Assembly (NCBI RefSeq): GCF_000160695.1
Contig: NZ_GG694006.1
Coordinates: 200,329-264,328, forward strand
Length of the DNA stretch: 64,000 bases
Reading direction: 5' to 3'
Source: Centipeda flueggei ATCC 43531
GTDB taxonomy: Bacteria > Bacillota > Negativicutes > Selenomonadales > Selenomonadaceae
Made by a program: the position numbers and the translations under genes. Positions 3,100 through 18,419 of the stretch are shown here, in pieces; within the stretch, counting starts at the first letter, position 1, and the number at the start of each line of letters is the position of its first letter. The notes below the pieces were generated by a model. It had not been told where the DNA came from. It ran no database searches and was given only the letters and a program-made list of their open reading frames with translations.

Positions 3100-3816
3100 T
3101 TACCTCGTCCCCAAACGTGCAAGTGCCGCTGCAGCAGCGTGCTGCTCCGCCTCTTTTTTGCTGCGTCCTATTCCTTCGCCCAGGACCTCCATCCCAATGC
3201 GAACGCGCATGGTAAACCGCTTATCATGGTCGGGACCACTCTCAGCGACCTGCTCGTAGGCAATACATTCATGCCTGTGACCTTGTACGTATTCCTGTAA
3301 CATCGTCTTGTAGTCCTGTACAGCGTGTTCCTGTCTCAGGCGCGTCACTTCTTCGGTGAACTGCCGCTGCACATAGCTATACGCCGCATCCCATCCTCGA
3401 TCGAGATAAACCGCTCCGATCACAGCCTCAAAGACATTCTCGAGGTTGTTCTGCCGCTCTGCTCCGCCGCCGAGCATCTCGCCGCGCCCCATGCGCAGAT
3501 GTGCTCCGAGGTGCAGCCGGCGCGCCAGCCGTGCGAGTGTCTCACTCTGCACGAGGCTCGCGCGCATCTTCGTCAGCTCTCCCTCCGAGCAATGTGGATA
3601 GGCAACGTAGAGATATGTACTGATGGCAAGCTCGAGGACGGCATCACCCAAGAACTCCAAACGCTCGTTATGTGTCGCACGTTCTCGCGCCTCATTAACA
3701 TAGGAGGGATGTGTCAATGCCTCTTCGAGGAGGGAGAGATCGGCAAAGTCCACGTCAAGAAAGGCCGAAAGACGCACGAGTTCCGCGCGCCTTGTTTCCG
3801 TCATGTGATGACTCAT
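3100..3816 (-). CDS. rnc: ribonuclease III
   Basis: Double-strand-specific endoribonuclease that processes ribosomal RNA precursors and some mRNAs. The catalytic signature NERLEFLGDAVLELAIS lies at about residues 50-66 and includes the metal-binding Glu and Asp. A C-terminal double-stranded RNA-binding domain ends the protein (YKTMLQEYVQG through KKEAEQHAAAAAL). At 238 aa it is full length. The start ATG overlaps the fabF stop as ATGA; a second Met four codons in is possible. B. subtilis also places rnc at the end of its fab-acp cluster, and here it is the last gene of the fatty acid block. Confidence 0.97.
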   Translation of the reverse strand: MSHHMTETRRAELVRLSAFLDVDFADLSLLEEALTHPSYVNEARERATHNERLEFLGDAVLELAISTYLYVAYPHCSEGELTKMRASLVQSETLARLARRLHLGAHLRMGRGEMLGGGAERQNNLENVFEAVIGAVYLDRGWDAAYSYVQRQFTEEVTRLRQEHAVQDYKTMLQEYVQGHRHECIAYEQVAESGPDHDKRFTMRVRIGMEVLGEGIGRSKKEAEQHAAAAALARLGTR

Positions 3817-5063
3817 AATTCCTTCGCATATTTCTTGACGACGAGGCAGGCATTGTGTCCGCCGAAGCCAAACGAGTTGGAGATCGCCGCACGCACGGTC
3901 TTAGCACGTGCCTTGTTTGGCACATAGTCCAAATCAAGCCCCTCATCCGGCGTCTCATAGTTAATCGTCGGGGGGAGCATATCGTTCTCCACAGAAAGGG
4001 CACTTGCAATCAGCTCTACGCTGCCCGCCGCACCAAGGAGATGCCCTGTCATAGACTTGATTGAGGAAACAGCGACATTCTTTGCCGCCTCACCCCAGAC
4101 TGTCTTGATTGCCTCAGTCTCGCAGAGGTCGTTCATATGGGTTGACGTACCATGTGCGTTGATGTAGTCGACCTCCTCCGGGCGCAATCCTGCATCATCG
4201 AGCGCCAGCTTCATGCACTTTGCCTGATATTCACCATGTGGTGCCGGACTCGTAATATGATAGCCGTCCGAGTTCGAGCCGTAGCCGACGAGCTCCGCAT
4301 AGATATGCGCGCCACGTTTCTCGGCGTGTTCAAGCGTCTCGAGCACAACCAGTCCTGCCCCCTCACCCATAACGAAGCCCGAACGGTTCTTGTCAAAGGG
4401 GCGCGAAGCGTGCGCAGGATCATCGTTATGATCCGTACAGAGGGCTTTCATCGCCGCAAATCCCGCGCTCGCCGCCTCGGAGATGCTTGCCTCTGTGCCG
4501 CCCGCGACCATGATGTCCGCCTCTCCGCGCTGCATAACGCGATATGCGTCACCGACACAATTCGCACCCGTAGCGCACGCCGTAACAATACAGGACACAG
4601 GACCATGGAGGCCGTAGCTGATCGCGACCTGCCCCGCTGCCATATTGGCAATCATCATGGGAATGAAAAAGGGACTGACGCGCTCCGGTCCTTTTTCAAA
4701 GAGACGTTCATAGGTGCTGTGCATCGTCTCAATGCCGCCGATACCCGCGCCGACATAGGCCCCGATACGGTCGCGGTTCTCCTTGTCGAGATCGAGCCCC
4801 GCATCCTTGAGTGCCATGCCTGCTGAAACGACGGCAAACTGCGCATAGCGATCCATGCGCTTGGCTTCCTTCTTGTCGATATAACCATCAATGGAAAAGT
4901 CCTTGACCTCGCCGGCAATCTGCGCGGCATAGCGTGTCGCGTCGAAGCGGGTAATATGACCGATGCCGTTTTTTCCTGCGAGAAGCGCATCCCAGAACGC
5001 TTTTTTGCCAATGCCGATCGGTGTGATCGGGCCGACCCCCGTAACGACAATCCTCTGTTTCAA
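3813..5063 (-). CDS. fabF: 3-oxoacyl-[ACP] synthase II
   Basis: Condensing enzyme for the elongation steps of type II fatty acid synthesis: acyl-ACP plus malonyl-ACP gives 3-oxoacyl-ACP. The catalytic triad is visible: Cys163 in VTACATGAN, His304 in NAHGTSTH and His341 in MTGHLLGAAGS, with Lys336 in SIKSM. At 416 aa it is complete. It sits 19 nt downstream of the flavoprotein gene and overlaps rnc by 4 nt. The Cys-His-His triad excludes FabH, which uses Cys-His-Asn and is encoded separately in the same block. Confidence 0.98.
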   Translation of the reverse strand: MKQRIVVTGVGPITPIGIGKKAFWDALLAGKNGIGHITRFDATRYAAQIAGEVKDFSIDGYIDKKEAKRMDRYAQFAVVSAGMALKDAGLDLDKENRDRIGAYVGAGIGGIETMHSTYERLFEKGPERVSPFFIPMMIANMAAGQVAISYGLHGPVSCIVTACATGANCVGDAYRVMQRGEADIMVAGGTEASISEAASAGFAAMKALCTDHNDDPAHASRPFDKNRSGFVMGEGAGLVVLETLEHAEKRGAHIYAELVGYGSNSDGYHITSPAPHGEYQAKCMKLALDDAGLRPEEVDYINAHGTSTHMNDLCETEAIKTVWGEAAKNVAVSSIKSMTGHLLGAAGSVELIASALSVENDMLPPTINYETPDEGLDLDYVPNKARAKTVRAAISNSFGFGGHNACLVVKKYAKEL

Positions 5064-5082: not shown

Positions 5083-6030
5083 CTAGTCCGCTGCTGCGAG
5101 CTGCTGTTTCAGCTCCTCAAATATCTCATGAACACTCATAATCCGATCGATACGCGGCATAAACTCACCGGTAAAGACAAGCCCCGTCTCCACATCCCCC
5201 TGCTGTGCGCGTGAGAGTGCACGGATGATGCAGAAGTGGTGATCGCACTGCTTGAGGCAGTGGTCGCAGACCTTTGGCGGTACGGGTCCCGCCATAATCC
5301 GTGCGGAGAACGGGGTTCGCACAGCACGCCCAGGAAGTCCCACGGGACTATGGATGATAACTACATCTTCCTTCTTCGTCTTCAAATAGTATTCTTTCAG
5401 CGATGGTGCCGCATTGGATTCGACGCTTGCGGCAAAGCGCGAGCCGAGCTGTACGCCATCCGCGCCCATTTTATGCAAATCGGCGATATCTTGTCCCGTC
5501 AGAACGCCGCCAGCAGCAAACACAGGAATTTTTACCGCCGCACGCACATCAGAGATAATGCTGCGCACCGACTGGTCTGTACCGAGATGTCCGCCAGCCT
5601 CCTTGCCCTCGACCACGACGGCAGCTGCACCGAGTTTTTCGGAAATCTTCGCCAGTTTTGCCGAGGAGACGATCGGAACGATCGGGGTCCCCGATTCCTT
5701 GCCGTACTGGAACATATCGCGGGAGAATCCCGCACCAGCAACGACGAGATCGATGCCCTCGTCGATGGCAATTTTAACGGCATCGGCAAAGTCATTCGCC
5801 GCGACCATTTCGTTGATGCCGATAATACCATGGGGAGAAAGTGAGCGTGCAAGCCGGATCTCATAGCGAAGCTCCTTCGGCTTCATGCCGGATGCTGCGA
5901 TAAGCCCGATCCCTCCCTCGTTTGCAGCGGCAGCAGCGAGACGCGCCGTCGTAATACGAATCGCCATGCCGCCCTGAATGATGGGGATCGTAGCCACTTT
6001 CTTGCCGATCCTCACCTCGGGTAGTCTCAT
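5083..6030 (-). CDS. nitronate monooxygenase / FabK-like flavoprotein
   Basis: FMN-binding TIM-barrel protein of the 2-nitropropane dioxygenase family. It shares with FabK the start IPIIQGGMAIRITTA, the VVEGKEAGGHLG loop and the IPVFAAGGVLTGQDI phosphate-binding strand. A Cys/His-rich stretch (CDHCLKQCDHHFC) near residue 270 is unlike the real FabK in this window. The ATG at 6030 is preferred because GGAGGG stands 6 nt upstream; a longer frame from 6117 lacks a ribosome site. It lies between acpP and fabF but after a terminator, so it probably starts a separate transcript. It may detoxify nitronates or reduce another enoyl substrate; the exact role is unknown. Confidence 0.8.
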   Translation of the reverse strand: MRLPEVRIGKKVATIPIIQGGMAIRITTARLAAAAANEGGIGLIAASGMKPKELRYEIRLARSLSPHGIIGINEMVAANDFADAVKIAIDEGIDLVVAGAGFSRDMFQYGKESGTPIVPIVSSAKLAKISEKLGAAAVVVEGKEAGGHLGTDQSVRSIISDVRAAVKIPVFAAGGVLTGQDIADLHKMGADGVQLGSRFAASVESNAAPSLKEYYLKTKKEDVVIIHSPVGLPGRAVRTPFSARIMAGPVPPKVCDHCLKQCDHHFCIIRALSRAQQGDVETGLVFTGEFMPRIDRIMSVHEIFEELKQQLAAAD

Positions 6031-6200
6031 ATAAGCCCTCCAATCGGGAAAGTGCACTGCCTCCGGCAGGTCTCTCCGTAGAAGTTTTGGCTCCCCCCTC
6101 CACCCATTGTTCTTCACTGTTCCGCCGGATGGAAGTCGGATCTATTCATGCAGGGAACACAGAAGCCCTGGTTTTATGCAAAGTGAATTGAGCCTTTTGA

Positions 6201-6282: not shown

Positions 6283-6513
6283 TTACTTGTTCTGGTCGAT
6301 GTAATTGACGACATCCTGAACTGTCTTGATCTTTTCAGCAGCCTCGTCAGGGATCTCTACGTTAAATTCTTCCTCAAAAGCCATGATGAGCTCAACGATG
6401 TCGAGTGAATCAGCACCAAGATCGTCAATAAACGTCGACTCCAAGGTGACCTCATCAGCCTCCGAGCCAAGCTGCTCTACGACAATGTCGCGAACCTTGT
6501 CAAACGTTGCCAT
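6283..6513 (-). CDS. acpP: acyl carrier protein
   Basis: Carries growing acyl chains on a phosphopantetheine arm for the Fab enzymes, PlsX and other acyl transferases. It has 76 residues, is strongly acidic, and carries the attachment motif GADSLD with the modified Ser at position 36. It follows fabG by 36 nt and precedes a hairpin terminator, so it is the last gene of the FapR-controlled run. An AGGAGGTG ribosome site precedes the ATG. Length, charge and motif leave no realistic alternative. Confidence 0.98.
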
Positions 6514-6549: not shown

Positions 6550-7293
6550 CTACATCACCATGCCGCCATCTACGTTGAGTACCTGGCCGGTAATATACGA
6601 TGCCGCATCGCTTACAAGAAAGAGAACGGCATCGGCAACATGCTCTGGTTTGCCAAGCGCACCGAGAGGAACTTCCTCAATGAGCTTCTCACGTATGCTG
6701 TCCTTCAGGACAGCCGTCATATCAGTATCGATGAAGCCCGGTGCAACAACGTTGACCGTCACATTCCGTGAAGCAAACTCCTTCGCCGCCGCCTTCGAAA
6801 AACCGATAACGCCTGCCTTAGCAGCAGCGTAGTTCGTTTGACCGACGTTTCCGATCTCACCGACAACGGAGGAAAGATTCACGATACGCCCGCTACGTTG
6901 CTTTGTCATGAACTTTGCAGCAGCCTTGGTGCAGGCGTATATGCCTTTAAGGTTCGTGTTGATGACCGCATCAAAGTCCTCGTCCTTCATACGAAGGAGA
7001 AGTGTATCACGCGTAATGCCCGCATTGTTGACGAGGATGTCCAAGCCGCCGAGTTCCTCATGCACATGTGCAACCATCTCGGTTGCAGCCGCACTGTCGG
7101 AGACATCGGTTTGGACGATCATCGCTGTGCCGCCGTGCTGCTCGATGATCGCCTTGACCTCCTCGGCAGCAGTCTGATTGCCTGCATAGTTGACGGCGAC
7201 TTTCGCTCCCTCTTCGGCTAGACGAAGTGCGATGGCACGTCCGATCCCGCGGGATCCGCCCGTGACAAGAGCAATTTTCCCATCAAGAAGCAT
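6550..7293 (-). CDS. fabG: 3-oxoacyl-[ACP] reductase
   Basis: NADPH-dependent short-chain dehydrogenase that performs the first reduction of each fatty acid elongation cycle. The cofactor motif TGGSRGIG is at residues 11-18, NNAG at 89-92, and the catalytic Ser142, Tyr155 and Lys159 fall in NLSSVV and QTNYAAAKAG. The C-terminus SYITGQVLNVDGGMVM is typical. At 247 aa it is complete, with GAAGGAGGG just before the ATG. Its place between fabD and acpP supports FabG rather than another short-chain dehydrogenase. Confidence 0.98.
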   Translation of the reverse strand: MLLDGKIALVTGGSRGIGRAIALRLAEEGAKVAVNYAGNQTAAEEVKAIIEQHGGTAMIVQTDVSDSAAATEMVAHVHEELGGLDILVNNAGITRDTLLLRMKDEDFDAVINTNLKGIYACTKAAAKFMTKQRSGRIVNLSSVVGEIGNVGQTNYAAAKAGVIGFSKAAAKEFASRNVTVNVVAPGFIDTDMTAVLKDSIREKLIEEVPLGALGKPEHVADAVLFLVSDAASYITGQVLNVDGGMVM

Positions 7294-7327: not shown

Positions 7328-8263
7328 TTACTTGTTAAGTGTGTCAAGTGTTTTTTGCAGAGATGCATCATCCTCGACATTCAGGCTCGTCAGAGTCTTG
7401 TCAATGCGCTTGTTAAACCCCGCAAGCGTCTTACCTGGGCCACACTCGATGTATATGTCTGCACCAAAGTCACGCATCGCAGAAACACACGCAATCCAAC
7501 GTACGGGATGATCCGCCTGTGCGACAAGATTCGCCTTGATCTCCGCCGCCGTCTGCTGCAGTCCGCCCGTATAATTCGAGACGACGGGGAACGCCGCGTC
7601 ATGGAGAGCTACCTTGTCGAGCTCTGCAGCGAGTTTCTTGGCTGCTGGAGCCATGAGCGTCGAGTGGAACGGTGCAGAGACGGGGAGAATGACCGCCTTC
7701 TTTGCCCCCTTTTCTTTGAGCAGTTCCACCGCTGTGGAAACGCCCTTCTCTGCCCCTGCGATGACCGTCTGTCCCGGGCAGTTAAAGTTGACCGCCTGTA
7801 CCGCCCCCTGTGCACTTGCCGCAGCACAGGCATCAATGATTGTCGCATCATCCAGACCAATGATTGCCGCCATCGCTCCCTCGCCCACGGGCACAGCCTC
7901 CTGCATATAGGCACCGCGCTTATGCACGAGCACGACGGCGTCACGGAAGGAAAGTGCCCCCGCAAGAACGAGCGCCGCATACTCGCCGAGGCTGTGTCCG
8001 CCGGCGATTGCAGGGGCAACACCGCGTGCCTGCAGCAACTGTGCCGCAATCACAGAGACAGTAAGGATAGCAGGCTGAGTATTCTCCGTCAGCTGAAGCT
8101 GATCTGCAGGTCCCTCAAAGCAGAGTTTGCTGATGGAGTAGCCGAGTGCATCATCTGCCTCGGCAAAACGATCCTTCGCAAGGTCATAGGCATCATAGAA
8201 ATCTCTGCCCATGCCGACAATTTGTGCGCCCTGTCCCGGGAACAAAAATGCAAGTTTTCCCAT
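7328..8263 (-). CDS. fabD: malonyl-CoA:ACP transacylase
   Basis: Loads malonate from CoA onto ACP, supplying the extender unit to FabH and FabF. The N-terminal LFPGQGAQ and the nucleophile elbow GHSLGE (Ser91) are present, and a conserved His lies in VSAPFHSTLM near residue 200. At 311 aa it is full length. It lies 11 nt downstream of fabK and 34 nt upstream of fabG. The substrate, malonyl-CoA, is also the ligand of FapR, which is encoded at the head of the same operon. Confidence 0.97.
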   Translation of the reverse strand: MGKLAFLFPGQGAQIVGMGRDFYDAYDLAKDRFAEADDALGYSISKLCFEGPADQLQLTENTQPAILTVSVIAAQLLQARGVAPAIAGGHSLGEYAALVLAGALSFRDAVVLVHKRGAYMQEAVPVGEGAMAAIIGLDDATIIDACAAASAQGAVQAVNFNCPGQTVIAGAEKGVSTAVELLKEKGAKKAVILPVSAPFHSTLMAPAAKKLAAELDKVALHDAAFPVVSNYTGGLQQTAAEIKANLVAQADHPVRWIACVSAMRDFGADIYIECGPGKTLAGFNKRIDKTLTSLNVEDDASLQKTLDTLNK

Positions 8264-8274
8264 TGTGGTACTCC

Positions 8275-9222
8275 TTAGTCGCAGATCTTACGTGCAGCAT
8301 CCATCGCACCCGGCAGATCCCGCACAATGTCCTCGATGATCTCCTTGACCGACTTGATATCCGAGAGCATGCCCGAAATCTCACCGATCATGACAGAACC
8401 GTTCTCAACATCGCCTTCATGTGTGGCGCGGTGCAGACTGCCGACACCAAGCTGTTCGAGCTCCTCATGCGACGCACCCGCAGCCTCCATCTCCTCGTAC
8501 TTGCGCGAGAGCTTGTTGTGGAGGACGCGCGCGGGATGCCCAAGCGAGCGACCCGTGACGACCGTCGAGCGGTCCTTTGCCTTGAGAACGGCATTCTTGT
8601 AGTTGGGATGAGCAATACACTCCGTGCTCAGGACGAAGCGCGACCCCATCTGGATCGCCTGTGCCCCAAGGGCAAATGCTGCCGCCATACCGCGTGCATC
8701 GCCGATGCCGCCTGCCCCAATGACGGGAACGTGGAGTGCATCTACCACCTGCGGCAGAAGTGCCATGGTCGTAATTTCGCCGATGTGACCGCCGGACTCC
8801 GTTCCCTCAGCGATCACGGCATCAACGCCCGTGCGCTCCAGGCGGCGTGCGAGTGCCACGGAAGCGACGACGGGGATGACCTTCGAGCCGATTTCCTTGA
8901 GTGCAGGGACGTATTCACCGGGATTGCCTGCGCCCGTCGTGATGACCGGCACGCGCTCCTCAAGGACGACCTGCATGACCTCTTTCACAAACGGACTCAT
9001 AAGCATCACATTGACACCAAAGGGCTTATCCGTCCATCCCTTGACCTTATGGATCTCGGCGCGGAGTGCGTCGGGCGGCATGTGACCTGCGCCGATGAGC
9101 CCAAGCCCGCCGGCATTGGAGACGGCAGAGGCAAGCTCCGCTGTGCCGATCCACGCCATGCCGCCCTGAAAAATAGGATACTTGATGCCAAGCATCTGAC
9201 AGATCGGATTATGTTCAAACAT
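8275..9222 (-). CDS. fabK: enoyl-[ACP] reductase II (FMN-dependent)
   Basis: Catalyses the last reduction of the elongation cycle with FMN and NAD(P)H. The N-terminus QMLGIKYPIFQGGMAWIG, the AEGTESGGHIG loop, VIGAGGIGDARG, and the VLHNKLSRKY tail region match FabK of streptococci. The ATG at 9222 overlaps the fabH stop (TAATG) and has AGGAGG upstream. The protein is 315 aa. No FabI-type reductase is seen in the window. FabK enzymes are known to be insensitive to triclosan, so such resistance would be expected, but that is inference. Confidence 0.93.
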   Translation of the reverse strand: MFEHNPICQMLGIKYPIFQGGMAWIGTAELASAVSNAGGLGLIGAGHMPPDALRAEIHKVKGWTDKPFGVNVMLMSPFVKEVMQVVLEERVPVITTGAGNPGEYVPALKEIGSKVIPVVASVALARRLERTGVDAVIAEGTESGGHIGEITTMALLPQVVDALHVPVIGAGGIGDARGMAAAFALGAQAIQMGSRFVLSTECIAHPNYKNAVLKAKDRSTVVTGRSLGHPARVLHNKLSRKYEEMEAAGASHEELEQLGVGSLHRATHEGDVENGSVMIGEISGMLSDIKSVKEIIEDIVRDLPGAMDAARKICD

Positions 9223-10226
9223 TAACCGTTCTCCTCCTTCGCCCACTTCATAATACACGATGCCCATGTGAGTCCCGCACCGAACCCCGCGAGGGCAATA
9301 TTGTCTCCCTTTTTAAATTGATGTGCGTGCGCCGCCTCCGCGAGGGCGACAGGGATGGACGCGGCAGACATATTGCCGTAATGATGAATATTTATAATAA
9401 CTTTTTCCATCGGCATCGCCAGTCGCTTGGCTGCCGCCTGGATAATACGGATATTCGCCTGATGCGGAACGAGATAGTCCAGCGCCTCCCGCTCCATCCC
9501 TGCACGATGCAGCGATGTCTCGACGGTCTTTCCCATAACCTTGGCGGCAAAGCGGAACACCGCCTTGCCGTCCATGTGAACGAAGTTGAGTCGCTGCGCA
9601 ATCGTCTCCGGGGTGACAGGGCAAAGGCTGCCGCTCGACGGGATATCGAGTGCATCCGCACCTGAACCGTCGCTGCCAAGGTCGAACGCGCACATGCCGT
9701 AGCCATCCTCAACCGCACCGAACACTGCCGCCCCCGCCCCGTCGCCAAAGAGAATACAGGTGTTGCGGTCCGTCCAGTCAATAACCTTCGAGAGTGTCTC
9801 ACCGCCGATCACGAGGACGTGACGATAGACACTGCTCTCGATGAACTGCGCTGCTATCGACGCAGCATAGACGAATCCGGAGCACGCCGCCGATAGATCA
9901 AATGCCGCCGCATGCTTCGCACCGAGGCGATCCTGCAGGACGCACGCCGTCGATGGAATGATGCGGTCGGAGGTGAGCGTCGCCATGATGATGAGATCGA
10001 GGTCCTCTGCCGCAACACCGGCATCGGCGAGTGCCATCTCTGCAGCGCGCTGTGCGAGAACTGAAACCGGTTCATCCGCAGCAGCGATGCGCCTCTCGTG
10101 AATTCCCGTTCGTTCGACGATCCAGGCATCATTCGTCTGCACCATCTTCTCCAGATCAAAGTTCGTCAGCACCCTCTCGGGGACATAGTACCCTGTTCCG
10201 AGGATGCCTGCACTAAGCTTAGACAC
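9222..10226 (-). CDS. fabH: 3-oxoacyl-[ACP] synthase III
   Basis: Starts fatty acid synthesis by condensing acetyl-CoA (or a branched primer) with malonyl-ACP. The Cys-His-Asn triad is visible: Cys115 in DLSAACSGF, His255 in VPHQANIR and Asn285 in HYGNMSAAS. The GTG start at 10226 follows AGGAGGAGG and gives the usual N-terminus (KLSAGILGTGYYVPERVLTN); it overlaps plsX by 8 nt. The protein is 334 aa. Primer choice, straight or branched, cannot be told from the sequence. Confidence 0.96.
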   Translation of the reverse strand: MSKLSAGILGTGYYVPERVLTNFDLEKMVQTNDAWIVERTGIHERRIAAADEPVSVLAQRAAEMALADAGVAAEDLDLIIMATLTSDRIIPSTACVLQDRLGAKHAAAFDLSAACSGFVYAASIAAQFIESSVYRHVLVIGGETLSKVIDWTDRNTCILFGDGAGAAVFGAVEDGYGMCAFDLGSDGSGADALDIPSSGSLCPVTPETIAQRLNFVHMDGKAVFRFAAKVMGKTVETSLHRAGMEREALDYLVPHQANIRIIQAAAKRLAMPMEKVIINIHHYGNMSAASIPVALAEAAHAHQFKKGDNIALAGFGAGLTWASCIMKWAKEENG

Positions 10227-11235
10227 GACCTGTTTCCTCCTCCTCCTTTGCAAGAGCATCACGAATCTGATCGAGCACCTTGCCGTTGACATAGCTGACA
10301 GTCACGCCGATCGCACTCGCAATGGATTTTGCGTCCGAAGAACCATGCCCGATCACGCAGCAGCCGTTCACGCCGAGGAGCGGTGCACCGCCGTACTCCC
10401 GGACATCAAGCCGCTTCCCCAGATGGCGCAGCGTCGGCATGAGGAGCAGCGCGCCGAGTTTTGCCATCAGGCCTGCACCGCGAATCTCCTCGCGGATCAG
10501 CCCCAGTATTGTCTTGGCAAGCCCCTCGGCGAACTTCAAAACGACATTTCCAACGAAGCCGTCGCAGACAACCACATCAAAATTCCCCTTCGGAACATCG
10601 CGCCCCTCGGCATTACCACAAAAATATATATTTGGATCCGTCTTCAAAAGAGGATAAGTTTCCTTTGCCTGTTCATTTCCCTTTGTCTCCTCCTCGCCGA
10701 TATTGAGCAGGCCGACGCGTGGACGCTCGATACCGAAGACATACTGGGCGTAGAGCGAGCCCATCACCGCACTCTGTACCAGATGCTCAGGCTTAGAGTC
10801 TACATTGGCGCCAGAGTCCAGCATCAGAGTCACACCATCTGGTGTCGGCATCGGTGTCGCGATCGTGGGTCGACTGACTCCACGAATGCGATGAAGGATG
10901 AGCTGTGCCGCTGCGACTGCAGCGCCCGTCGATCCAGCAGAGAAAACCGCGTCACAGGTTCCTTCCTTCACCATTCGCGTAGCAACGACGATCGATGCCT
11001 CCTTTTTGGAGCGTACTGCCTCCGCCGGAGCCTCGTTCATGCCGATGACATCCGCCGCGTGGACGATGGAGATATGCAATGTGTCCATATCCGCACCGCC
11101 CAGCTCCGCACGAATTTTCCTCTCATCACCGACCAGTACAATCTCACAGTCGTATTTCTTCGCTGCATCAATTGCCCCGCGGACAATCTCTTTCGGCGCG
11201 AAATCTCCACCCATCGCATCAATCGCTATACGCAT
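10219..11235 (-). CDS. plsX: phosphate acyltransferase PlsX
   Basis: Converts acyl-ACP to acyl-phosphate, the donor that PlsY uses to acylate glycerol-3-phosphate. It thus links fatty acid synthesis to phospholipid synthesis. The N-terminus MRIAIDAMGGDFAPKEIVRG and the internal GSTGA motif are diagnostic. At 338 aa it is full length. It lies 33 nt downstream of fapR and overlaps fabH. The fapR-plsX-fab order is the classic Firmicutes arrangement. Confidence 0.97.
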   Translation of the reverse strand: MRIAIDAMGGDFAPKEIVRGAIDAAKKYDCEIVLVGDERKIRAELGGADMDTLHISIVHAADVIGMNEAPAEAVRSKKEASIVVATRMVKEGTCDAVFSAGSTGAAVAAAQLILHRIRGVSRPTIATPMPTPDGVTLMLDSGANVDSKPEHLVQSAVMGSLYAQYVFGIERPRVGLLNIGEEETKGNEQAKETYPLLKTDPNIYFCGNAEGRDVPKGNFDVVVCDGFVGNVVLKFAEGLAKTILGLIREEIRGAGLMAKLGALLLMPTLRHLGKRLDVREYGGAPLLGVNGCCVIGHGSSDAKSIASAIGVTVSYVNGKVLDQIRDALAKEEEETGRV

Positions 11236-11268: not shown

Positions 11269-11823
11269 TCATTTCCCGAGAGAAACTACGATGAATTTGG
11301 CACGGAAAACCTCCTGCCCATCACGGTAGGTCTTGACCCAGACAAAAATTTTATTGCCGCGTACCTTCACGATCTCCGCCTGTGCAATAACTGTATCCCC
11401 CTTGTAGATTGGTGTTTTATATTTGACGTTGGCGACCCCAGTAATCGCCAGCGGTGCATCGACAATTGCAAGAGCGAGTGAGTTCGCCTGTGAAAAGAGT
11501 GCCGTCCCGCGCGCGATATCCGAATCAGCAAAGAGGTGATCGTCCATCACCTTCAGTGCTGACGTACCACGTATGCCAAGCTCGAGTGAGAGCAGATCAC
11601 CGACTACCTCTGCATGGGGAATAGCGCGCACTTTCTCACGCGCATTCTCAGCAAGTGTCCGCACACGTGCACGCAGCTCCGGAATCCCCAACTCCGTCCG
11701 ATCAAGCCGCACCGTCTGCACACTCACAGCAAGTTTTCGCGCCAGCGCTTCATCAGTGAGGAACGGTTCCTTACGTACAGCAAGAACAAGTGTCTCTTGA
11801 CGCCGTCGCTTCTTTTCCGTCAT
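11269..11823 (-). CDS. fapR: fatty acid and phospholipid biosynthesis repressor FapR
   Basis: Transcription factor that represses lipid synthesis genes and is released by malonyl-CoA. An N-terminal DeoR-like helix-turn-helix (about residues 15-50, DEALARKLAVSVQTVRLDR) is joined to a hot-dog ligand-binding fold (about 75-184; GTALFSQANSLALAIVD, YKTPIYKGDTVIAQAEIV). The 184-aa length is normal. The ATG at 11823 follows GAGAGGAGGG; an in-frame start 21 nt earlier is weaker. Its promoter is overlaid by FapR-type operators, so autoregulation is expected. Confidence 0.96.
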   Translation of the reverse strand: MTEKKRRRQETLVLAVRKEPFLTDEALARKLAVSVQTVRLDRTELGIPELRARVRTLAENAREKVRAIPHAEVVGDLLSLELGIRGTSALKVMDDHLFADSDIARGTALFSQANSLALAIVDAPLAITGVANVKYKTPIYKGDTVIAQAEIVKVRGNKIFVWVKTYRDGQEVFRAKFIVVSLGK

Positions 11824-11874
11824 CGTGCCGTTCCCTCCTCTCACACGGCTGTCACGCGAATCACGCCGATAACC

Positions 11875-11926
11875 TTTTTAGCACCTACTGCTATCAGTAT
11901 GGGAGTATTATACTAGGTGCTAAAAA
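11875..11926. promoter_or_regulatory. paired FapR-type operators upstream of fapR
   Basis: TTTTTAGCACCTA at 11875-11887 is exactly mirrored by TAGGTGCTAAAAA at 11914-11926, 26 nt apart. Each arm contains TTAGCACCTA, close to the TTAGTACCT half-site known for Gram-positive FapR operators. The left arm also continues to TGCTAT, giving a full quasi-palindrome (TTAGCA-N5-TGCTAT). The right arm lies within the fapR promoter spacer. That these sites bind FapR is inferred from similarity and position. Confidence 0.75.
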
Positions 11927-11934
11927 AAAAGCAA
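11907..11934 (-). promoter_or_regulatory. promoter of fapR-plsX-fab operon
   Basis: On the minus strand, TTGCTT and a perfect TATAAT are separated by 16 nt. The spacer contains the right-hand FapR half-operator, so bound repressor would block RNA polymerase. Confidence 0.75.
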
Positions 11935-11943
11935 GAGAAAACA

Positions 11944-11990
11944 GAAAAAAGAGCCGTTGCAAAAGATCAAAAGATTTCTTGCAACGACTC
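11944..11990 (-). terminator. rho-independent terminator after rpmF
   Basis: On the minus strand GAGTCGTTGCAA pairs with TTGCAACGGCTC and is followed by a U6 tract. It separates the rsmD-to-rpmF transcript from the fapR promoter just downstream. Confidence 0.85.
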
Positions 11991-14734: not shown

Positions 14735-17700
14735 GTTTCAATCCACGCGCCCCATGCGGGGCGCGACAAAATCCGCGAGCTTCTTCCGATTACGATTGCC
14801 GTTTCAATCCACGCGCCCCATACGGGGCGCGACCCTGTGCGGTCATGTCAATCACCTTCCTTATTTGTGTTTCAATCCACGCGCCCCGTGTGGGGCGCGA
14901 CCCGCTTGCATCAGACACGAACAACCAAGACGGGCTGTTTCAATCCACGCGCCCCGTGTGGGGCGCGACATGTGCTGGCGGCAGATGGCGAGCACTTTAT
15001 CTGTTTCAATCCACGCGCCCCGTGTGGGGCGCGACTGTACGCCAATGCCTTTATCTATCCGCAGTTTGGCGTTTCAATCCACGCGCCCCGTGTGGGGCGC
15101 GACATTTCTGGTGTTGGGATTGCGTTCTCAGACAGATGTTTCAATCCACGCGCCCCGTGTGGGGCGCGACATACTATATCACAGGTCATATAGGCAATTC
15201 TAGGCGTTTCAATCCACGCGCCCCGTGTGGGGCGCGACCGTGGCAACATCATCAAGTACGCATCGCGGTGCGGTTTCAATCCACGCGCCCCGTGTGGGGC
15301 GCGACTTGCAGCGTTACTTCATGGAGTGGTTCAGGAAGGGTTTCAATCCACGCGCCCCGTGTGGGGCGCGACGAGGAAGTACGTTATCTTGCGGGCACCA
15401 TGGAAGGTTTCAATCCACGCGCCCCGTGTGGGGCGCGACTCACGGTCACGCTCCGCATCGTCGCTGCCGGAATGTTTCAATCCACGCGCCCCGTGTGGGG
15501 CGCGACGGAGGCGTGCTGATGGTTGTATGCGAGCGAGGCGTTTCAATCCACGCGCCCCGTGTGGGGCGCGACACATCGAGATAGATCGCACGGATAAGGT
15601 CGTAATCGTTTCAATCCACGCGCCCCGTGTGGGGCGCGACGTGGACGGGACGAAATTCCCGAACCTCGTCCTCATGTTTCAATCCACGCGCCCCGTGTGG
15701 GGCGCGACTCCCACGCCTTCGCGTCCATTTCACAGCGACAATGTTTCAATCCACGCGCCCCGTGTGGGGCGCGACTACACAGGGATTGGACGCGCGGCTC
15801 TTGACGGCGGTTTCAATCCACGCGCCCCGTGTGGGGCGCGACCCAAGGCTGCTCTCTATCGCTTCGTCGTCACAGGTTTCAATCCACGCGCCCCGTGTGG
15901 GGCGCGACTCCCACGGATAGACGTGGTTGCGGTCGGCTTCGACGTTTCAATCCACGCGCCCCGTGTGGGGCGCGACCATTCAGAATCTCCAATGCAGTCT
16001 CTTGTTGATCGTTTCAATCCACGCGCCCCGTGTGGGGCGCGACTCACGAATGTTATGCGTGCGGTGATATTTGACAAGTTTCAATCCACGCGCCCCGTGT
16101 GGGGCGCGACAGTACGTCCAAGAGTATGTTGATCTGTGCATTGAGTTTCAATCCACGCGCCCCGTGTGGGGCGCGACCATTCAGAATCTCCAATGCAGTC
16201 TCTTGTTGATCGTTTCAATCCACGCGCCCCGTGTGGGGCGCGACTCTGATTGGTCTTGGAAGAGACTCTTATACAGATGTTTCAATCCACGCGCCCCGTG
16301 TGGGGCGCGACTCGTTGGTCTTGGCGCAACTGTATGGGAGGAGATGTTTCAATCCACGCGCCCCGTGTGGGGCGCGACTCCGAATAAGTATGCCAACGAG
16401 CGGTTTACGTCATGTTTCAATCCACGCGCCCCGTGTGGGGCGCGACCTATAGACAGCTCTCCTTTCCAGCCCTTTTCGTGTTTCAATCCACGCGCCCCGT
16501 GTGGGGCGCGACGACGTTGTAATGCTTCAAAACATCCGCCCCGTCGTTTCAATCCACGCGCCCCGTGTGGGGCGCGACATCGTCGCATCCGAGCCCGCAT
16601 AGCCCATGATGTTGTTTCAATCCACGCGCCCCGTGTGGGGCGCGACCAAGGCTGCCAACGCTGCCGTAGAGCACGCTTGCGTTTCAATCCACGCGCCCCG
16701 TGTGGGGCGCGACTTCTCCCGTAAAGCCTGCGTCCAAAGAAAAACCGTTTCAATCCACGCGCCCCGTGTGGGGCGCGACACGTTGGGATCGGATGCGGTC
16801 TCGGCAACATCCAGTTTCAATCCACGCGCCCCGTGTGGGGCGCGACCGTGTACAGCTACGATCTGCGTCCCGGTGCAGACGTTTCAATCCACGCGCCCCG
16901 TGTGAGGCGCGACACATAAGGCGTGGTGACGTGTCACGAAAAATCATGTTTCAATCCACGCGCCCCGTGTGGGGCGCGACGAAGCCGACAGGCGTTACTA
17001 CAGCTAAGACAAACGTTTCAATCCACGCGCCCCGTGTGGGGCGCGACTTCGTCGTCACAGGAAACTTTCGGGCATGGTATGTTTCAATCCACGCGCCCCG
17101 TGTGGGGCGCGACACATCTATCCAGACTATTCACTCTATGGGGACACGTTTCAATCCACGCGCCCCGTGTGGGGCGCGACTACGCTCCTTGCGGGGTTCG
17201 TGGACAACACGGGGTTTCAATCCACGCGCCCCGTGTGGGGCGCGACACACATCGGCGCGGAGATACCCGAATGCCGACCAGTTTCAATCCACGCGCCCCG
17301 TGTGGGGCGCGACGGCGAACTATTCGACGCTCAAATCCTGCTGGAAGGTTTCAATCCACGCGCCCCGTGTGGGGCGCGACCACTCGATTTCCATGAGGGC
17401 GACGTTGTGCAGGCGTTTCAATCCACGCGCCCCGTGTGGGGCGCGACACTTCCTGCGTGACCGAATCAACACGTAGAGGTAGTTTCAATCCACGCGCCCC
17501 GTGTGGGGCGCGACATTCCCGTCTTTAACGACAATCCCGCCTTGTGTGTTTCAATCCACGCGCCCCGTGTGGGGCGCGACCTGCGCCGCAGGAGTGCCAA
17601 CCCCCTCTTTGTTCTGTTTCAATCCACGCGCCCCGTGTGGGGCGCGACCATCAGTTTTGCCGACTACCTCGACATTTGGTATGTTTCAATCCACGCGCCC

Positions 17701-18246
17701 CGTGTGGGGCGCGACTGCCCCCTCCTTACTCCACCGTGCACTTGACGGGTTTCAATCCACGCGCCCCGTGTGGGGCGCGACGCCCGTGCCCCGCACTCTG
17801 CGGATGCACTAGGAGTTTCAATCCACGCGCCCCGTGTGGGGCGCGACTTCGCCTCCTGCGCCATGCGAAGCGGCAAAATGTTTCAATCCACGCGCCCCGT
17901 GTGGGGCGCGACCTCAACATTGATGGAAATAACGTCTATGTGTTGGGTTTCAATCCACGCGCCCCGTGTGGGGCGCGACCAGCGCAGGGCTATCAGACCA
18001 CCGCCGAAATGACGTTTCAATCCACGCGCCCCGTGTGGGGCGCGACGTGCTGTCATTCCCGGGGCGCAGCTGATCGAGCGGTTTCAATCCACGCGCCCCG
18101 TGTGGGGCGCGACGAGATGGATTTGAAATGGATAACGCAGATGGCAGTTTCAATCCACGCGCCCCGTGTGGGGCGCGACTGGCGCATGAAAGGAGCGTGC
18201 TGAGATGGGGCTTGTTTCAATCCACGCGCCCCGTGTGGGGCGCGAC
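14735..18246 (-). CRISPR. type I-C CRISPR array, 53 repeats and 52 spacers
   Basis: I counted 53 repeats of 33 bp with starts 65-68 bp apart, so spacers are 32-35 nt. Read in the transcribed (minus) direction the repeat begins GTCGCGCCCCACACGGGG and ends GTGGATTGAAAC, typical of type I-C. It folds as a perfect 8-bp stem, CGCGCCCC/GGGGCGCG, with loop ACAC. The leader and cas2 lie on the high-coordinate side, so new spacers should enter near 18246. The two leader-distal repeats (14735, 14801) and the one at 16881 are variants. One spacer occurs twice (15977 and 16178). Confidence 0.99.
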
Positions 18247-18419
18247 GGCAAAAGAGGTCACGACTTCCCTCCTCTGCCACGTATTTATGGGTATTCCCCT
18301 CCACAAATACGATTTTCTCGGCACCTAAGCCCCACGCCCCTCCTGCGGCATGATTCTCGCACCTATATTTTTACATTCTATTTTCTGTTCACTTCACCTT
18401 CGCACTCAGTAATAAATGC
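18247..18419 (-). promoter_or_regulatory. CRISPR leader
   Basis: This 173-bp stretch lies between the cas2 stop and the first repeat in the crRNA direction. It holds AT-rich segments (around 18360-18400) of the kind that carry array promoters and integration signals. No gene is evident. The role is inferred from position and repeat orientation. Confidence 0.75.

Follow-up and report, generated by a model that had tools for sequence, protein, structure and literature searches.

The 64-kb window, the whole stretch of DNA from the oral bacterium Centipeda flueggei that was analysed, contains the gene cluster fapR-plsX-fabH-fabK-fabD-fabG-acpP-FabK-like gene-fabF, in which fapR is the first gene; rpmF lies upstream, and all of these genes are on the minus strand. 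The features on which the analysis is based are the following, with candidate FapR operators scored using a matrix trained on fapR promoters.

11951..11990, minus strand, terminator-like hairpin and T tract between rpmF and the fapR promoter (inverted repeat of 83% over 18 nt, 4-nt loop, then TTTTTT)
11931..11934, minus strand, core TTGC of the −35 element (by direct reading; TTG does not vary in the alignment of 14 species)
11907..11923, minus strand, O1, upstream FapR operator (candidate), TTAGCACCTAGTATAAT, matrix score 13.0
11907..11912, minus strand, −10 element TATAAT inside O1 (read directly; invariant in 14 species)
11878..11894, plus strand, O2, downstream FapR operator (candidate), TTAGCACCTACTGCTAT, matrix score 17.1
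11269..11823, minus strand, fapR, malonyl-CoA-responsive repressor (NF003359 equivalog)
10219..11235, minus strand, plsX (TIGR00182)
9222..10292, minus strand, fabH (TIGR00747 / NF006829)
8275..9267, minus strand, fabK (TIGR03151, over cut-off)
7328..8263, minus strand, fabD (TIGR00128)
6550..7293, minus strand, fabG (TIGR01830)
6283..6513, minus strand, acpP (TIGR00517)
3813..5063, minus strand, fabF (TIGR03150)

An earlier note on this DNA had named the gene downstream of the promoter fapR, and we could substantiate this assignment. The product of this gene (P0001) matched the FapR equivalog NF003359 / PRK04424 (NCBIfam) with 223.7 bits at a curated cut-off of 183, scored above the cut-off for 4HBT PF03061 (a hot-dog thioesterase-like effector domain), and aligned with Staphylococcus aureus FapR (4a0x) over residues 7-184, including the HTH (phmmer, E=3e-33). 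In the S. aureus FapR crystal, the DNA is touched by Lys10, Arg13, Gln41, and Arg56 (PMC3536700), and these residues align with K12, R15, Q43, and R58 of P0001. The fapR start was placed at the ATG at 11823, while the longest frame begins with a GTG at 11844. Between acpP and fabF, a second FabK-like protein is encoded at 5083-6117 on the minus strand; with 185.8 bits versus the FabK cut-off of 453.1, it is probably another nitronate-monooxygenase-type enzyme.

In the 5' to 3' direction of the minus strand, the fapR promoter consists of TTGC (11934-11931), a T-rich spacer, O1 (11923-11907), 12 bases, and O2 (11894-11878), and the −35/−10 spacer is 16 nt if the hexamer is TTGCTT. A consensus promoter scan did not call the fapR promoter, presumably because the −35 element is weak. 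The terminator-like hairpin at 11951-11990 was not called by a simple scan.

An inverted repeat with two FapR-like sites

The arms of the inverted repeat, TTTTTAGCACCTA at 11875-11887 and its exact reverse complement at 11914-11926, are complementary at 13/13 positions and separated by 26 nt, exactly as the earlier note had it; its placement of the right copy in the promoter spacer with the −10 element adjoining is also correct, the minus strand running from this copy into TATAAT. The window has no other perfect inverted repeat of 13 bp whose arms are ≤40 nt apart, and shuffling the 160-bp intergenic region yielded such a repeat in 0/20,000 cases. In the 2.16-Mb genome, TTAGCACCTA has exactly two occurrences, both in the inverted repeat, and the 10-bp core of the repeat has no further copies. 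Based on the arm coordinates, the two-fold axis of the repeat is at 11900/11901, which would be where the start site is predicted, 7 nt past the −10 element.

Both copies scored above 10.8, the 99% level of shuffled promoters. O2 fits the 17-bp consensus quasi-palindrome with a score of 17.1, is the best site in the genome for TTAGYACCTRSTRYTAA (one mismatch), and would be located at about +6 to +22, just beyond the predicted start site. O1 scored 13.0 against the same consensus; its outer half, TTAGCACC, is perfect, while its inner half is degenerate and merged with the −10 element, which makes up the last 6 bases of the site. The first 12 nt of O1 are those of Bacillus subtilis fapO, TTAGTACCTAGTCTTAA, save one C/T (fapO as in PMC12281612), and TTAGNACCTAGT is common to the two. 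The resemblance to FapR sites suggested in the earlier note is borne out by the scores, but its term "half-operators" is not: each site combines a perfect outer half with a weaker inner half, and each copy is better read as a degenerate full 17-bp operator, O1 less clearly than O2. The centers of O1 and O2 are 29 bp apart.

The search proposed in the earlier note, for copies ahead of other lipid genes, found none: no second locus in the genome has an exact copy, and those fatty-acid genes that we identified all belong to the fapR operon. Searching the whole genome for the 17-mer at ≤3 mismatches gave 18 matches versus 63 for a reversed control pattern, i.e., there is no enrichment and a wider regulon is unsupported. 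Among the listed ORFs flanking these matches, we identified no other fatty-acid gene.

Conservation in the genus and alternative readings

The earlier note had made its proposal depend on the motif being kept upstream of fapR in close relatives, and this check favored the note. We found fapR, O1, and O2 in 14/14 species genomes of the genus (the named relatives in the sample being Selenomonas felix, S. noxia, S. infelix, S. artemidis, S. massiliensis, and Centipeda periodontii), with the stretch from O1 to O2 ungapped and the spacing fixed. Across the 14 species, invariant columns amounted to 10/11 in O1 up to the −10 element, 6/6 in the −10 element, and 14/17 in O2; in the flanks, the corresponding numbers were 0/9 before the −35 element, 0/5 in the spacer before O1, 2/12 from the −10 element to O2, and 0/14 after O2. 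The single variable position of the O1 core is the C/T of TTAGYACC, and the same C/T position also varies in O2, as expected if one protein recognizes both sites. Among non-redundant promoters of the genus, 11/11 had a secondary site at −29, for which the null is 0.0004 per promoter; a p-value for this count is not to be taken literally because the species are related. At ≤1 mismatch, the only matches to the operator pattern common to all 14 genomes were the two fapR sites. We note that conservation within the genus counts as few independent events and that the invariance of the inner half of O1 could be due to the −10 element.

From these sites and their conservation, we infer with considerable confidence that the inverted repeat is a head-to-head pair of FapR operators across the promoter of an autoregulated fatty-acid operon. 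An alternative is that only O2 works as an operator, while O1 is a T-rich spacer running into TAGTATAAT with a likeness to a FapR half-site that arose by accident or from AT-richness. It is O2 that has counterparts in nearly all Selenomonadaceae fapR promoters and the inner half of O1 is weak (reverse half mean −0.4), but the outer eleven bases of O1, TTAGYACCTAG, are located upstream of the −10 element where sigma-70 does not need conservation, and yet all but one of them are invariant while the preceding five spacer bases all vary. Together with the sequence shared with B. subtilis fapO and the presence of TTAGKAC in the spacer of other genera, mostly one helical turn farther, this makes a fortuitous O1 unlikely. 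A regulator other than FapR would fit with the FapR-like palindromes that are also present near non-lipid genes in the genus; however, the repeat matches the FapR consensus from phylum-wide fapR promoters as well as B. subtilis fapO, fapR is the adjacent gene, and the base-contacting residues of FapR are conserved, and we consider a different regulator very improbable. 

Between the two 10-bp cores, 10/10 positions match in mirror image only in C. flueggei, compared with 8-9/10 in the relatives, and no pair was altered on both sides across species, arguing that the sites are kept and the mirror symmetry is not. This bears on the least credible of the alternatives, in which the repeat would form a hairpin in RNA, or a cruciform, and serve as attenuator or terminator: although the strand folds with −30.2 kcal/mol with the 13-bp stem included, and 9/10 core pairs are kept in all species when G-U is allowed, the fold energy does not stand out (z −1.8), covariation does not surpass that of shuffles (335/500), A/G and no U run come after the 3' arm, and the upstream arm precedes the predicted start, so that the fapR mRNA would carry one arm only, which together with the lack of covariation argues for a pair of protein sites.

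For the operator pair, we propose that at low malonyl-CoA, FapR dimers would occupy O2, the stronger site, and O1, which spans spacer and −10 element. FapR on O1 would hide the −10 element from RNA polymerase, and FapR on O2 would block the initial transcribed region; together, they may constitute a tight double lock. As malonyl-CoA increases, FapR would leave both sites and the operon would be turned on. A cooperative contact between the two dimers is conceivable, although we regard it as somewhat less probable than its absence. Looping between O1 and O2, raised in the earlier note, is unlikely with centers only 29 bp apart, a distance that is too short, and is also not needed.

Comparison with known systems and other lineages

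Within the literature covered, searching for FapR together with Selenomonas or Negativicutes gave nothing relevant and turned up no binding data for a Negativicutes FapR. The B. subtilis fapR operon is similar in repressor family, in being a lipid operon headed by fapR, in the operator consensus, and in having the site inside the promoter or immediately beyond it (PMC5052256, PMC12281612); however, a single 17-bp inverted repeat is described there, whereas Selenomonas has two separate repeats, one of which holds the −10 element. In S. aureus, two FapR dimers bind one promoter with Kd of 0.5 and 51 nM (PMC3536700), but the FapR-PfapR complex (4a0x/4a0y/4a0z/4a12) differs in having one recognizable inverted repeat over half its protected stretch. 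Engineered counterparts are also known. In promoters with fapO in the −35/−10 core and a further fapO downstream (core_+8 and core_TSS, PMC12281612), repression is at least 97-99% and output very low, in line with the double lock proposed; in PFR1 (Liu 2015, cited in PMC5052256), fapO copies flank the −10 element. All of these come close to the Selenomonas geometry and are repressed very strongly. These promoters are man-made, whereas the Selenomonas pair is natural, has opposed orientation, and includes the −10 element within the upstream operator. The genus would have a natural double FapR operator resembling engineers' malonyl-CoA sensor promoters. Judged by sequence, the arrangement is most likely a double FapR operator, a lineage-specific variant of known regulation and not a new system.

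To map where a second site lies in each lineage, we used 166 distinct fapR upstream regions, in which the best site was held fixed and the flanks were shuffled to obtain a null. In other Negativicutes, a second FapR-like site was located 13 bp upstream in 25/52 non-redundant promoters (null rate 0.003), while other Bacillota had one 13 bp downstream in 8/24 promoters (null 0.002). In an extra 40 promoters, the 13-bp upstream site was present in 17, which is a weak replicate as these promoters are mostly from genera sampled before. The site at the 13-bp offset overlaps the main operator (e.g., L078, L125, L143, L140, and L183) and is not described in the literature searched; it may be the seat of the second dimer in the S. 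aureus complex. Promoters of the Selenomonas genus had no 13-bp site (scores about −20) and instead the 29-bp upstream site. Outside the genus, the fapR upstream regions collected had a complete second site at 29 bp in L117 and the closely related L196 alone. The double-site arrangement, which each of the 14 species sampled from the genus has, is rare in other bacteria with FapR, most of these lineages having different spacings. Several Selenomonadaceae genera are without any full FapR match (genomes G005, G006, G009, G012, G013, G020, and G030), which suggests loss or replacement of FapR control in these.

In several sister genera, TTAGKAC lies in the spacer with 56 bp between the outer edges, compared with 46 bp in this genus, a difference of 10 bp or one helical turn; 24 further promoters have the 56-bp distance. 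The 46-bp distance is composed in three ways (11+6+12+17 in the genus, 15+6+8+17 in L034, and 12+6+11+17 in L117), a hint that helical phase is under selection. In the extra 40 promoters, a distance of 56 was found five times and 46 once. Strict 10-bp phasing of spacer half-sites is suggested by the dominance of 46 and 56 but is left as a hypothesis and not claimed, as 30, 51, and 53 also occur. A broader reading, which we offer as speculation and think rather doubtful, is that fapR promoters follow a geometric code that places two dimers in a fixed rotational relation: many Bacillota would use the 13-bp overlapping site, and Selenomonas would have re-invented it as a second operator, 29 bp upstream, that does not overlap the first (in sister genera 39 bp, a further turn), with O1 and O2 acting as one cooperative malonyl-CoA switch. 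The comparative map of second-site positions illustrates one route by which an operator may be moved while autoregulation stays, and simple spacing experiments could address the purpose of having two FapR dimers on a single promoter.

Other loci in the genus were also noted. The FapR-like palindromes TTAGTACCTAGCACTAA, TTAGCACCTGGCACTAA, and TTAGCACCTGACGCTAA (L235, L236, L246, and L247; four species) are flanked on one side by an argininosuccinate-lyase-like gene and on the other by a gene whose product is probably a small outer-membrane protein (identities assigned by eye). In two species, TTATTACCTAGTACTAA and TTATTACCTAGTGCTAA (L233 and L234) precede a porin-like outer-membrane gene with an SLH domain, and a FapR link to envelope proteins through these two sites is possible. 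In at least 7/14 genus genomes, a tyrosine-recombinase-like gene has TTRWCACCTGTTGCTAA at what looks like its −35 (G000:C7:40195-40211, L046 and L243; L237-L242). Finally, the window contains a large CRISPR array at ~14790-18250 with ~50 repeats of the GTTTCAATCCACGCGCCCCGTGTGGGGCGCGAC type.
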